Virus record (IMG/VR): IMGVR_UViG_3300024520_000215
Span: 1-38,161 of that record
Direction: 5' to 3' (one strand)
Length of the DNA stretch: 38,161 nt
Source of the DNA: a virus
In this document: in pieces, positions 1-35,318 of the stretch
How the letters are laid out: every line of letters begins with the position of its first letter
How positions within the stretch are numbered: the stretch's first letter is position 1
Translations under genes and position numbers: made by a program
The notes under the pieces: generated by a model
Seen by the model: only the letters and a program-made list of their open reading frames with translations
What the model was told of the DNA's origin: nothing
Databases searched by the model: none

Positions 1-327
1 TAGCGCTAAAGGCGAATGGTTGAGCCCATCAGTCGTAGCCCTTCGGCTGGACACGCGGGCGCCTGCTGAAAGTCAGTGGCTCATCTGGTGAGCCACCAAG
101 AGAAGTATTATGTACATTGGGCGAAGGAATGGTTGGATTCGCCCCACTTGTGGGATTACACTCACTAGTGGAACGCATCCGCCAGCGCCTGTAGAGACAC
201 CAAGCGATTCCCTGGCCGCTTCATTAGCTGCGCCGCTTGGTGCCCCACAAAACGGGAGCTTGATGCATGACAACTAACCACAAAAACACCAAAAACAAAG
301 CTGACATAAGAGGGGATGTATTCAAGA
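1..327. other. Left-end non-coding region with inverted repeats
   Basis: I see no convincing gene here. The stretch holds several perfect inverted repeats: GTGGCTCA (76-83) against TGAGCCAC (89-96); GGGCGAA (119-125) against TTCGCCC (138-144); CCCAC (143-147) against GTGGG (150-154); and CACCAAGCG (198-206) against CGCTTGGTG (234-242). None is followed by a clear T-run, so they look more like operators or structured RNA than terminators. In T7-like phages this end carries host-RNAP promoters, but I could not fix a -35/-10 pair with confidence. Confidence 0.5.
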
Positions 328-744
328 ATGACTACGTCACAATCGAGTGGTACGACGAACCTGAAACCTATACTTGCATTGACAACAGTGCTGAGAGAGG
401 CGCTGGGAGACCCGCCGCTAATAGTGGTGCACGTCTTTATGACAATCATGGACAAGCCAGGTGTGTCTCAAACCGAGATAGCGAAGTCTCTGCACATGTC
501 GAAGGGTGCTGTCAGTCGGACGATAAGTTCGTTGCGTAGCATTGTGAACTGGGACAGACGCCGTGAGCGCCCCGGTCCCGACTTGATAGATGAGCGTGTT
601 GACCCAGTGGAGACGCGTGCACGAAAGATTTACCTGAATGCGCGTGGCGAGCAGTTGGCTGGGGCTGTTAAACAAGCCCTGGCAGGTGAGCGGGTGACGA
701 TGCCCAAGCCACTAAGGGTTGATACTTGGAGGGCAAAAGATTGA
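328..744 (+). CDS. Winged-helix (MarR-like) transcriptional regulator
   Basis: Probable DNA-binding regulator of 138 residues. A helix-turn-helix lies at about residues 47-69 (SQTEIAKSLHMSKGAVSR). It is followed by a basic wing at about 84-105 ending in RKIYLNARGEQL, the layout of MarR-type winged helices. The family usually has about 140 residues and binds palindromic operators as a dimer; several palindromes lie just upstream (1-327) and near 1834-1881. An ATG at 316 is in frame, but the AGGGG at 311-315 abuts it, so the ATG at 328 is more plausible. The stop overlaps the integrase start (TTGA), implying co-transcription. In this position it could act as a lysogeny or integration regulator, or as an excisionase-like factor; that role is inference. 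No other repressor-like gene is seen. Confidence 0.72.
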   Translation: MTTSQSSGTTNLKPILALTTVLREALGDPPLIVVHVFMTIMDKPGVSQTEIAKSLHMSKGAVSRTISSLRSIVNWDRRRERPGPDLIDERVDPVETRARKIYLNARGEQLAGAVKQALAGERVTMPKPLRVDTWRAKD

Positions 745-1739
745 GCGTTAAACAGCGAGGTAACGGCTGGCAGATAGACTTTCGGCTGGCTGACGGCACG
801 CGGTACCGGAAGATACATCCGTGCACTAGCCGTCAGGAAGCGGAGTTTGTGGAGCTGAAGGTCAAGAAGAATATTCGGCTGGGCCGGGGTGCGACCACAG
901 GTGACATGACACTTGAGCAGGCGTGCGACCGCGCACTAAAAGAGCACTACTCGCGGCTGAAAGACTCACGCGGTGCTGAGATAAATGTCGGTGTGCTGCT
1001 GAAAGTGCTTGACCCAAACATGTTGCTGAAAGACATCGACGGCAACGTGCTGACGGACCTAGTGAGTGACCTGAAGACTGAGCATGGTCACAAGGGTGGA
1101 ACAATCAACCGCAAGCTCGCCACATTACAAAAAGTAATGCGAATAGCCGTGGAACAGTGGGAAGTCATCGACAGGCTACCGAAGTTTCCGAAGCAGCCTG
1201 AGTCAGTAGGCCGCGTCAGAATTTTGACGCTTGGGGAGGAGTCCACTCTCCTAGAGCTGTTGCGCGGCCTAGACGACATCCGGTGCAGCTGCGCGGACTT
1301 CTTTGTCTTCCTGGTAGACACCGGGTGTCGGTTGTCCGAGGGGCTCGACCTGCAGTGGCGTGACGTCCAACTGGAGGAAGGCACCATCACCATCTGGGAG
1401 AATAAGGCCTCTCATCCCCGCACAGTGCCGTGCACTCAACGGGTGTTGTCTTGTTTGCGTGGACGCTCTGCTGGTATTGGACGGGTGTTCCATGACGTCA
1501 CCAAGGACCGCGCTGAGAGAGCTTTCCGGTACTGTCGGCACGCTATGGGCCTCGCTGATGACTCCCAATTTGTGGTTCATGCCCTACGGCACACCTGCGC
1601 CTCTCGGCTGGTCCGAGCTGGTGTGGAGCTGTATGCAGTCAAGACCTTGTTGGGGCACAAGAGCATCACCACCACGGAGAGGTACGCGCATCTGAATACG
1701 GATAGGCTGCGAGACGCTGTGAAGGTGCTGGAGCGATGA
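741..1739 (+). CDS. int: Tyrosine recombinase / phage integrase
   Basis: Site-specific integrase of 332 residues from the chosen start. All core catalytic residues are visible: R197 (in TGCRLSEG), H280 and R283 (HALRH), H306 (LLGHKS) and Y315 (ERYAHL). An N-terminal arm-binding-like segment (RGNGWQIDFRLADGTRYRK) and a central SAM-like core-binding region precede the catalytic domain. I chose the TTG at 741 because GGAGGG (728-733) sits 7 nt upstream; a TTG at 726 would leave no ribosome-binding site. It overlaps the regulator stop by 4 nt. A tRNA-Sec-like sequence 180 bp downstream is the likely attP core. Integrases are known in a minority of T7-like phages (for example some pelagiphages) and indicate a temperate capacity. 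Confidence 0.95.
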   Translation: MSVKQRGNGWQIDFRLADGTRYRKIHPCTSRQEAEFVELKVKKNIRLGRGATTGDMTLEQACDRALKEHYSRLKDSRGAEINVGVLLKVLDPNMLLKDIDGNVLTDLVSDLKTEHGHKGGTINRKLATLQKVMRIAVEQWEVIDRLPKFPKQPESVGRVRILTLGEESTLLELLRGLDDIRCSCADFFVFLVDTGCRLSEGLDLQWRDVQLEEGTITIWENKASHPRTVPCTQRVLSCLRGRSAGIGRVFHDVTKDRAERAFRYCRHAMGLADDSQFVVHALRHTCASRLVRAGVELYAVKTLLGHKSITTTERYAHLNTDRLRDAVKVLER

Positions 1740-1917: not shown

Positions 1918-2013
1918 GGGAGAGTATCGGAAGAAGTACCACTAGTCGGACTTCAAATCCAGTGAGACGCGTTCAACGTGTCTGGTGGGTTCGACTCCCA
2001 CGCTCTTCCGCCA
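1918..2013 (+). tRNA. tRNA-Sec (selC)-like sequence, probable attP core
   Basis: Ninety-six nt with clear tRNA-Sec features. An 8-bp acceptor stem is formed by 1918-1925 and 2002-2009, with two G-U pairs. A 5-bp T stem (1985-1989/1997-2001) carries a TTCGACT loop. The extra arm has 7 bp (AGACGCG/CGTGTCT). The 7-nt anticodon loop CTTCAAA carries TCA (1953-1955). The 3' end is G plus encoded CCA. The 8+5 acceptor/T arrangement and UCA anticodon are tRNA-Sec hallmarks. The 5' half is degenerate: no proper D stem can be drawn in 1928-1945, and C1947:A1961 is mismatched. That asymmetry, beside the integrase, fits an attP core carrying a faithful host 3' half. A functional phage tRNA or UGA suppressor is the less likely alternative. 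Confidence 0.65.
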
Positions 2014-2454: not shown

Positions 2455-4824
2455 ATGAGTATTGAACGTGAGCTGGAATTGGAGAACGAAGCTGTGCTCG
2501 GCGGAGTAGGTCGATACTGGGATGTCGTTGAATCCAGGGGTCATTCCGAAACGCACGTCGGACAGCGCTTGATTGCATTGTTGGTCGAAAGCACGTCTCC
2601 GCACATCGGACAATATATCGCGGATGCGAAGAAGGTTGATTACCGGAGTCCGGTTACTTATCTGGGCATGTCTAAACCATCGTCTTTGGCGTTGCTAACG
2701 TCCAGAGCAGTGGTTCAAGGTGTCTCTCAGTACAAGACGGCGACTACTGTCGCCAATCTCGTTGGGTCTCTCATCAGGGAGCACCTAGAATGGCAGCGTT
2801 TTTATGAGTCCGAGAAACCACTTGCTGCGCACATTTCAAAAGAGACTGCTAAAGCCACCACCGAGCGCCATCGTCGTGCAGTGGCTCGGCACGCTGTCGA
2901 ACGGTTCGGTGACCCACTGGACTGGACTCCCGAATTCACAATCAGAGTCGGTGCCGTACTGGTTGAATTGGTGTGCCTGCACTCGGGGCTGGTCGAGAAG
3001 CAGACGCACTTCGTGTCTCGCAAGAAGAAAAGAACCATCGTGACCCTGACTAATGACGCCAAGCTGATCCTTGAGTTTGGGCATATCCGAGCGGAAGACC
3101 TGAGCCCGATTTGGCTACCGATGGTGTGCTCTCCAAAGCCCTGGACGGCACCAACCGAAGGCGGCTATTGGCGACGTCGGCTACCGTTGGTCAAGGGTTC
3201 ACGCGGGTCGTATCTTGATGAGCTAGAGCATGCAGACATGCCGGTCGTATACGACGCTCTGAATGCACTGCAAATGACACCGTGGCGAATCAACCGGTCC
3301 GTGCTGCACGTGTTTCAGCAAGCGTACAACGCCGGGGACCAGTTGGCGTTGCCTGCTCGACAGGACAAGCCGTTACCCGCCAAGCCGACGGACATCGAGA
3401 CTAACGATATCGCTCGCAAGGAGTGGCGTATCAAGGCTGCGCGAACCTACGACCATAACGCTAGGTTGGTGTCTAAGCGGGTGGCTGCGTCTGCGAAGCT
3501 GTCTCTGGCCGAACGATTTGAACAAGAGGAGGCGATTTATTTCCCGCATGCTCTGGACTGGCGGGGCAGGGCGTACCCGATTCCGGTCGGTATCAATCCG
3601 CAGGCCGACGACCTTGGGAAAGCACTGATTCATTTCGCTAACGGAAAGCCGCTAGGTAAAGACGGCGCTAATTGGCTTGCTATCCACGTCGCCAATCTTT
3701 TTGGTGTCGATAAGGTCTCGTATGTCGGACGGATGCAGTGGGTGGTTGACCACACCGAGGAGATTTTGGACTCCGCAATGGACCCGCTAGACGGGAAACG
3801 GTTCTGGCTCGAAGCAGCCGACCCGTGGCAGGCACTGGCAGCGTGCTTTGAGTGGTTCGGCTACATGGTACAGGGTGCGGAGTACGTCTCTCACCTACCC
3901 ATATCCATGGATGGCAGTTGCAATGGGCTCCAGCATTTCAGCGCGATGTTGCGAGACGAGATTGGCGGGCACGCAACGAATCTCACAGCAAGCGAGGAGC
4001 CCCAAGACATCTATCAGATTGTTGCTGACCGGGTCACACAAAGGTTGGAAGAGGAGAGTGATGAACGCGCCGCCAAGTGGCTAGAACACGTCAGTCGGCA
4101 AATCGTCAAGAGACCCGTGATGACGCTGCCGTACGGTGCTACTCGCTACGGAATGCGCGACCAGATTCTGAAAGAGGTTCGCAAACACGAAGAAGATAAT
4201 AAGGGACCGATGTTTCCGGGGTCGGATGGATTCCGCGAGTCAAAGTTTCTCGGTGATTTGGTGTACGACTGCATCGGAGACGTCGTCATAGCCGCACGAG
4301 ATACCATGGACTGGCTGCAGGACTCTGCGCGTGTTGCTGCCCAAGCGGACCTGCCCATCTGGTGGACCACTCCCAGTGGACTGCCGGTCTGCCAAGACTA
4401 CCGAAAACGAAAAGGGAAGCGCGTGGAAGCGTGGGTTGGGTCGCAACGGATTACGTTACAGCTACAGCTCGATACCAGTGCCCTGAATGCGAAGCGCCAA
4501 GCGCTCGGCATCGCACCTAACTTTGTGCACTCGTTGGACAGCGCACACATGATGTTGACTGTCAGTCTGTGTCTGCAGGAGGGTATCACGGACTTCGCGA
4601 TGGTGCATGACTCCTATGGTGTTCATGCGTGTGATGCTGGTGAGATGGCTGCGGTTCTGCGTTCTGCATTCGTTATTCAATACGAGGAAGATGTTCTTCA
4701 GAAATTCCGCGAGGAGCTGTTACAGCAGCTCCCAGAGGAGCTGGCCGCTGAGCTTCCTCCAGTACCACCTAGCGGCAACTTAGACCTAGGGGTCGTGCAG
4801 GACTCGTTATATTTTTTTGCCTAG
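2455..4824 (+). CDS. gp1: T7-type single-subunit DNA-directed RNA polymerase
   Basis: Phage transcriptase of 789 residues (T7: 883) that should read the phage promoters. Recognised motifs: DWRGRAYP; motif A PISMDGSCNGLQHFSAML with catalytic D486; motif B VKRPVMTLPYG with K552 and Y560, at the same 8-residue spacing as T7 K631/Y639; and motif C FAMVHDSYG with catalytic D719. The protein ends in SLYFFA, like the C-terminal FAFA foot of T7 polymerase. The ATG at 2455 follows GGTGGAGG at suitable spacing. Its own leader carries a phage promoter and two GAGAC motifs, so expression is probably self-amplifying. It is the first gene to the right of the putative attP and reads away from it. Confidence 0.98.
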   Translation: MSIERELELENEAVLGGVGRYWDVVESRGHSETHVGQRLIALLVESTSPHIGQYIADAKKVDYRSPVTYLGMSKPSSLALLTSRAVVQGVSQYKTATTVANLVGSLIREHLEWQRFYESEKPLAAHISKETAKATTERHRRAVARHAVERFGDPLDWTPEFTIRVGAVLVELVCLHSGLVEKQTHFVSRKKKRTIVTLTNDAKLILEFGHIRAEDLSPIWLPMVCSPKPWTAPTEGGYWRRRLPLVKGSRGSYLDELEHADMPVVYDALNALQMTPWRINRSVLHVFQQAYNAGDQLALPARQDKPLPAKPTDIETNDIARKEWRIKAARTYDHNARLVSKRVAASAKLSLAERFEQEEAIYFPHALDWRGRAYPIPVGINPQADDLGKALIHFANGKPLGKDGANWLAIHVANLFGVDKVSYVGRMQWVVDHTEEILDSAMDPLDGKRFWLEAADPWQALAACFEWFGYMVQGAEYVSHLPISMDGSCNGLQHFSAMLRDEIGGHATNLTASEEPQDIYQIVADRVTQRLEEESDERAAKWLEHVSRQIVKRPVMTLPYGATRYGMRDQILKEVRKHEEDNKGPMFPGSDGFRESKFLGDLVYDCIGDVVIAARDTMDWLQDSARVAAQADLPIWWTTPSGLPVCQDYRKRKGKRVEAWVGSQRITLQLQLDTSALNAKRQALGIAPNFVHSLDSAHMMLTVSLCLQEGITDFAMVHDSYGVHACDAGEMAAVLRSAFVIQYEEDVLQKFREELLQQLPEELAAELPPVPPSGNLDLGVVQDSLYFFA

Positions 4825-5542: not shown

Positions 5543-5679
5543 TGCAGCGCTACATCGAGTCGCTGATCAGACGTGCCCGCATTTACCACGGCTTGAACAT
5601 GCAGTTGCCCCTTTGGTTGGTCGCTGAGATGAACGACGCCGGGATTATTATCGACGAACTACAGGAGAGCTTTGAGTAA
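5542..5679 (+). CDS. Small hypothetical protein (45 aa)
   Basis: The ORF starts in the stop of the preceding gene (TGATG) and ends in the start of the SSB gene (TAATG), so it sits in a fully coupled chain. The product has 45 residues, with a basic helical N-terminus, a central LPLWLVAEM segment and an acidic C-terminus. The tight packing on both sides is the main support. No family is recognised. Confidence 0.62.
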   Translation: MQRYIESLIRRARIYHGLNMQLPLWLVAEMNDAGIIIDELQESFE

Positions 5680-18823: not shown

Positions 18824-18885
18824 CCCAGGTCCATCTCCTGCCTGGGTACCTTCGCCCAGGTCCATCTCCTGCCTGGGTACCTTCG
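18824..18885 (+). repeat. Two tandem 31-bp hairpin-forming repeats
   Basis: Two perfect 31-bp copies (18824-18854 and 18855-18885). Each contains CCCAGG and CCTGGG separated by 11 nt, so each can fold as a 6-bp hairpin, followed by TACCTTCG. They sit between the scaffold stop and the T-run terminator at 18886. They may be incomplete terminators or mRNA stability elements that reduce read-through into the capsid gene or protect 3' ends. Confidence 0.9.
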
Positions 18886-18918
18886 CCCCGGTGCAATGCC
18901 GGGGCGTCCTTATTTATC
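18886..18918 (+). terminator. Intrinsic terminator between scaffold and capsid genes
   Basis: CCCCGG (18886-18891) pairs with CCGGGG (18899-18904) around TGCAATG, then CGTCCTTATTT. Together with the two upstream hairpins it makes a triple stem-loop array. Incomplete termination here would set the scaffold-to-capsid transcript ratio. Confidence 0.75.
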
Positions 18919-34742: not shown

Positions 34743-35318
34743 TTGAAACCTACCGCTTGGCTCGTGCATGGATTCAACGTGCGCGACGGAGGTGCTGCTA
34801 CGACAGACAAGTTAAGGCAGCCGCTGGAAGCGCTGGGGTGGAACGTCGAGGAGTTCGACTACGGGTGGACGTTCCTGCTGGGCGTCTGGCTCGGTAACGG
34901 ACCACGCGCCAAGAAACTAGCCTTGCAAGTCAAACATGGTGACGTTGGATTCGGCCACTCGAACGGGTGCGCCATCTTGCACCGCGCCGCGCATCTTGGC
35001 GCTCCGTTCAAGAAGCTCGTTTACGTGAACCCTGCGCTGGATTCAGACGCACGGCTGGCGGCCAGGGTCGAGATGCTAACGGTGTGGCACTCGCCTAGCG
35101 ACATCCCGGTTCGCATGGCGTCATGGCTACCAGGTGTTGCCTGGGGAGACATGGGCAGCATCGGGTGCACGGTGGCGTCACCACGTATTCACAACCAGAA
35201 CAAAGAGACCGGCTGGTCCGTCTCTAGCAAGTCACACAGTGATGTCTTCCACGGTCGCAAGTGGGAGTTCTTCAAGGAACACATAGCAATGTCTGGAGGT
35301 ATGCCTAGTGTCGGATGA
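34743..35318 (+). CDS. Alpha/beta-hydrolase fold protein
   Basis: 191 residues. WLVHGFNVRDGG (about 6-17) provides an HG oxyanion-type loop; GFGHSNGCAI gives the nucleophile elbow G-H-S73-N-G. D120 (SPSD) and H165 (SKSHSDVF) are suitable for the acid and base of a catalytic triad. Length matches small lipase/esterase-like hydrolases. No signal peptide is visible. T7 has no counterpart between fibre and terminase genes. It might cleave an ester in the envelope during lysis or entry, or act on host lipids; substrate is unknown. TTG start at 34743; a GTG start for the terminase gene lies within its 3' end. Confidence 0.85.
   Translation: MKPTAWLVHGFNVRDGGAATTDKLRQPLEALGWNVEEFDYGWTFLLGVWLGNGPRAKKLALQVKHGDVGFGHSNGCAILHRAAHLGAPFKKLVYVNPALDSDARLAARVEMLTVWHSPSDIPVRMASWLPGVAWGDMGSIGCTVASPRIHNQNKETGWSVSSKSHSDVFHGRKWEFFKEHIAMSGGMPSVG

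Follow-up and report, generated by a model that had tools for sequence, protein, structure and literature searches.

Integration of T7-like phages into tRNA genes

T7-like phages are mostly thought to be lytic, and the tRNA genes known as integration sites for them are mainly those of tRNA-Leu. In the T7-like cyanophage S-TIP37 a tRNA-Leu attP has been proved by mutants (PMC8776855), and integration at tRNA-Leu was proposed for Pseudomonas phage LUZ100 and for pelagiphages (PMC10134795). The tRNA-Sec gene selC serves as the site of the Pf-tRNA-Sec filamentous prophages (PMC7549136) and of the Burkholderia phage PhiE067, whose authors state that selC is only rarely identified as a phage site (PMC7266877). 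The sequence-only reading of the present locus knew of no T7-like phage at selC, and likewise we found no report joining selC with Autographiviridae in the open-access literature.

The window, which is the whole stretch of DNA that was analysed, is the 38,161-bp IMG/VR virus record IMGVR_UViG_3300024520_000215 with a G+C content of 0.556. It belongs to a T7-like phage (Autographiviridae), as its single-subunit RNA polymerase, T7-type terminase and capsid and T7 gene order show. The RNA polymerase gene (2455–4824, plus strand, Pfam RNA_pol 1.4e-126) encodes a protein with up to 42% identity to Autographiviridae polymerases and is followed downstream by a T7-type primase-helicase, the capsid gene, a Gp13-like protein and the terminase. 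Upstream lies the gene of a MarR-family regulator (316–744, plus strand, Pfam MarR_2 1.1e-6, PHROG 9665 transcriptional regulator), which overlaps the tyrosine integrase gene int behind it (726–1739, plus strand, Pfam Phage_integrase 5.9e-25, PHROG 1). The catalytic residues R202, K227, H285, R288, H311 and Y320 are all present and fall into invariant or nearly invariant columns of an alignment with 10 T7-like integrases. The 715-bp gap between int and the RNA polymerase gene contains no convincing gene and houses a degenerate copy of a tRNA-Sec gene with encoded CCA (1918–2013, plus strand), so that an intact tyrosine recombinase gene adjoins the copy. Elsewhere in the window, a 31-bp tandem repeat with 2.2 copies and 97% match (18824–18892) stands directly before the capsid gene, and an ORF near the terminase genes (34743–35318), for which PHROG and Pfam returned no match, resembles an alpha/beta hydrolase (LVHGFN..., GHSNG).

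Like S-TIP37, P-SSP7 and the T7-like pelagiphages, the phage of the window combines a T7-like genome and a tyrosine integrase with a proposed attP beside int whose core derives from a portion of a tRNA gene of the host; those phages target tRNA-Leu instead of tRNA-Sec, and integration is proved for the cyanophages, whereas the window is known from sequence. LUZ100 is likewise T7-like, with a MarR-int module, a tRNA beside int and an RNA polymerase about 41% identical to that of the window, but its tRNA-Leu is complete and located upstream of and opposite to int, while the degenerate tRNA-Sec is downstream and parallel. The Pf-tRNA-Sec prophages of P. aeruginosa, with a 27-bp attP, have their attB at the tRNA-Sec gene 3' end, as proposed here; they are filamentous, however, carry a different integrase and have a core that starts in the T arm, in contrast to the anticodon arm in the window. 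PhiE067 also uses selC, with a 19-bp att, but is a myovirus with a core shorter than that of the window. As an attachment site, the element in the window belongs to a known type, while its target is new among T7-like phages and would add selC to their integration sites.

A tRNA-Sec copy with a canonical 3' half

The sole Rfam match in the window was the tRNA-Sec family RF01852, found by cmscan at 1918–2009 on the plus strand with 47.3 bits, where the gathering score is 47 (E=1.3e-6); position 2013 is the last of the encoded CCA. This Infernal result bears out the proposal of a tRNA-Sec made from the letters alone, and the sequence and pair counts agree with the 8+5 bp acceptor/T arm, TCA anticodon, long variable arm and encoded CCA described there: all 8 acceptor pairs (two of them G.U), all 5 pairs of the T stem and all 8 of the variable arm can form. 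We compared the copy position by position with the structures of nine gammaproteobacterial selC genes of equal length. Canonical tRNA-Sec sequence begins at about GGACTTC (1948) and runs from the anticodon loop to the CCA, which upholds the claim of a perfect 3' part from this point on; the claim does not extend to the 5' strand of the anticodon stem, where TCGGA stands against TCCAG with a C x A at pair 30–44 and a U.G at 29–45. The D arm, described as degraded, has indeed a broken D stem and is more than degraded, with positions 13–30 identical to the nearest bacterial selC at only 3 of 18 sites, as expected by chance. The tRNA is thus present from its anticodon loop to the CCA and the sequence upstream of about 1948 is non-tRNA, with the exception of the 5' acceptor strand, which alone still pairs. 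A covariance model of the selC 3' half (R1), built from 18 other sequences with the window left out, scored the canonical part (GGACTTCAAATCC ... GCCA, 1948–2013, plus strand), the region proposed to be identical to the host attB, with 62.3 bits and E=1.8e-13 in 729 kb, and the 3' half is therefore far beyond chance.

The nearest bacterial matches are gammaproteobacterial selC genes from two MAGs and their relatives in an order of 41 genomes. This order yielded 10 selC genes, with 87–90% identity over 66–67 nt in 7 genomes and 79–81% in 3 more. Relative to the closest selC, two pairs of the variable stem differ and both changes are compensatory (GC to AU and GC to CG), as expected if the window had copied a functional selC of a relative not yet sampled. 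Judging from these matches, the host would be gammaproteobacterial. The strongest test named in the sequence-only reading, a bacterial selC with an exactly shared 3' core, failed in the collections searched, where the best match remained at 90%; neither 369 genomes sampled from the class of the 41-genome order nor 399 genomes from the order of Dyella gave a better one. A relaxed selC pattern returned 5 selC from bacterial genomes, none with the variable arm of the window, and viral contigs contained neither the exact 66-nt core nor the 23-nt T-arm/acceptor end. No prophage of this phage appeared in the viral or bacterial collections searched, and a search of the 41-genome order for T7-like RNA polymerases, run without a positive control, returned none. 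The core also offers a handle for finding the host, as a bacterium with a selC exactly matching 1948–2013 would be a candidate.

The tRNA-Sec copy as a probable attachment site

We conclude that 1918–2013 is very probably the attP through which a temperate T7-like phage, by means of its tyrosine integrase, integrates into the selC gene of its host. The shared core would extend from about the anticodon stem-loop (GGACTTCAAATCC, 1948–1960) through the CCA end, with the crossover in or near the anticodon loop, so that the 5' half of the host selC is joined to a 3' half supplied by the phage and a complete selC is preserved at one prophage end. That recombination occurs, where exactly it crosses over and which host is involved are inferred. 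This reading is favoured because the 3' half is canonical, the sequence upstream is mostly non-tRNA and the copy is sited between int and a T7-like RNA polymerase gene, and because two other T7-like viruses are associated with selC. An attP core copied from a host selC 3' half beside an integrase gene, as first read from the sequence, is supported by the same evidence.

Both viruses, here called G411 and G415, were found by a selC pattern scan of viral contigs and encode a related integrase and a T7-like RNA polymerase; their selC sequence occupies the position that it has in the window. The 43.6-kb contig G411 (IMGVR_UViG_3300048577_000543) starts with a bacterial chemotaxis receptor (MCP) gene followed by a complete tRNA-Sec at 1805–1898 (82.3 bits); right at selC the G+C content falls from about 0.60–0.66 to 0.44, and the T7-like RNA polymerase gene comes next. 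At the far end we found a terminase 49% identical to that of the window, a MarR-like gene and int, which terminates at the contig end; the MarR-int order of the window recurs in this contig as it does in T7-like relatives. By its gene order and composition, G411 is evidently a T7-like prophage at selC, opened at attP as the int-attP-RNA polymerase map of the window predicts, with one junction seen and the second off the contig. G415 (IMGVR_UViG_3300035042_000021) has just the 3' half of selC, placed between int and the RNA polymerase gene and on the strand opposite to int, whereas the copy in the window is parallel to int. In both contigs selC appears from its sequence to be of a different, Desulfovibrio-like type, in contrast to the gammaproteobacterial-like one of the window. 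Taken together, G411 and G415 strongly back the reading of the window as an attP.

Besides the absence of the exact core from the bacterial genomes searched, what counts against this reading is the 5' acceptor strand (GGGAGAGTATCG, 1918–1929, plus strand), which a pure 3'-half attP would not need and which is kept well beyond chance: it is identical to the bacterial GGAAGAGNATCG at 10 of 12 positions, a match equalled at only 3–5 of 76,306 positions of the window genome, and forms 8/8 pairs with the acceptor 3' strand. It overlaps the 8-mer AGAGTATC (1921–1928, plus strand), which has only two further copies in the whole 38 kb, at 2222–2229 and 2249–2256 on the minus strand, so that every copy lies inside the int-RNA polymerase gap. 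As integrase arm-type sites the three copies are suggestive only, because some 8-mer occurs three times in 16% of shuffled regions; an analogue in G415 is TGTCGCA, with six copies clustered around its selC core. The match at 1918–1929 may either be the relic of a whole selC once carried or arise incidentally from an integrase arm site. We had considered it as firm proof of whole-gene capture and dropped this view, as the AGAGTATC repeats give an alternative account. T7-like relatives carrying whole tRNA-Leu genes would be a parallel for such a capture.

Further repeats were noted between attP and the RNA polymerase gene. The 13-bp unit AGTCCCTTCTATC is present in 3.2 perfect tandem copies at 2302–2343, and a 22-bp direct repeat GTCCGWCTTRYGAGACYAGTYC is located just upstream of the RNA polymerase start at 2355–2376 and 2409–2430 and absent from the rest of the genome. 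The first of these resembles the reverse complement of the left attP flank at 1935–1952 (15/18). The paired GTCCGWCTTRYGAGACYAGTYC repeats are possibly operators or shared binding sites.

The kept acceptor strand, at exact spacing, could also be explained by a whole selC that was captured by imprecise excision and has since been decaying, while the functional attP lies at another place. Imprecise excision has been proposed for the tRNA-Leu of LUZ100 and pelagiphages (PMC10134795). A dead relic is nevertheless unlikely, as the 3' half is undecayed with compensatory changes in its variable arm, decay is limited to the half dispensable for an attP, int is intact and selC is used by the two other T7-like viruses.

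Even less can be said for a functional phage-encoded tRNA-Sec, by which UGA would be read as selenocysteine or Sec decoding of the host supported during infection. The full-length Rfam score just over the curated cut-off, the fully kept acceptor pairs, a fold that beats 199 of 200 shuffles and the complete tRNA-Leu genes of some relatives would agree with it. Yet a functional tRNA-Sec requires an intact 6-bp D stem and anticodon stem, and the copy has a broken D stem and the C x A mismatch; the D arm is required by bacterial SelA. ARAGORN reported no tRNA in the window, a likely consequence of the broken D arm. We also saw no sign of in-frame UGA use: no gene of the window looks interrupted by an in-frame TGA, and a TGA stop trailed by an open frame of over 60 codons occurs in just three genes, of which one encodes a complete terminase and the other two read on into their downstream neighbour. 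All this makes a working tRNA highly improbable. A chance tRNA-like fold, suggested by an Rfam score only 0.3 bits over the cut-off, is refuted by the independent 3'-half model (62.3 bits, E about 1e-13) and by 87–90% identity to real selC genes, and its probability is negligible.

Related integrases and a possible change of target

The preferred reading, an attP for selC, raises the matter of where this target came from. In the integrase tree the window, G411, G415 and the related T7-like phage L077 form a four-member clade (support 81/81), nested in a nine-member clade (98/98) that includes Caulobacter phage S2B and Mycobacterium phage jiawei. Clustering of the window integrase with those of G411 and G415 is moderately supported in this tree, whose branches are long and which marks the pairing of G411 with G415 as potentially spurious. 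The use of selC may have been gained once in the clade. Target specificity is not uniform, since L077, of the same clade, carries part of a tRNA-Leu and no selC, which also counts against the attP reading; the other clade members examined (L081, L114, L140, S2B and jiawei) yielded no selC either, even when all filters were removed. The closest relatives of the window integrase are overwhelmingly T7-like: T7-like RNA polymerases are also found at 69 of 80 related integrase loci, and a complete tRNA-Leu adjoins int at 14 of the 80. The tRNA-Leu part of L077 (4194–4237) is a 5' half only, up to the anticodon arm and between int and the RNA polymerase gene, the reverse of the usual 3'-half attP. 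The T7-like phage L081, with the closest RNA polymerase seen to that of the window (44%), has a tRNA-Leu(UAG) 3' half downstream of int (5580–5638), the same attP design as in the window.

Of 18 complete tRNA-Leu genes in T7-like relatives, 13 have GACTTAAAATC within the anticodon arm, and in two this arm reads GGACTTAAAATCC. This arm of tRNA-Leu(UAA), GGACTTAAAATCC, and that of tRNA-Sec, GGACTTCAAATCC, are one base apart in the middle of the anticodon (UAA/UCA), which suggests a simple route for target switching. Strand exchange would take place in the anticodon loop, as suggested by the cores starting there, and an integrase adapted to tRNA-Leu(UAA) would then need one altered attP base to match selC. 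The target of the window would derive from tRNA-Leu(UAA), a gene found at the corresponding location in related phages. Tentatively, and at somewhat less than even confidence, we propose that a T7-like temperate lineage switched from tRNA-Leu(UAA) to tRNA-Sec(UCA) and now resides in selC of hosts of different phyla, with the prophage supplying half of the Sec tRNA gene of its host. The one-base difference provides a simple and testable model of how an integrase changes its target.

Use of selC as a phage target seems wider than the literature suggests. In several viral contigs without a detected T7-like RNA polymerase the selC copies begin at about GGACTTC or ACTTC, with no 5' half, and this shared start indicates that the point where the window turns canonical is the usual core boundary. 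Contigs with copies beginning at the anticodon arm and no T7-like RNA polymerase detected are L152/L153, L149, L151, L150/L154, L024 and L026; L150 and L154 contain the same selC copy, both coming from one 38.7-kb isolate contig.
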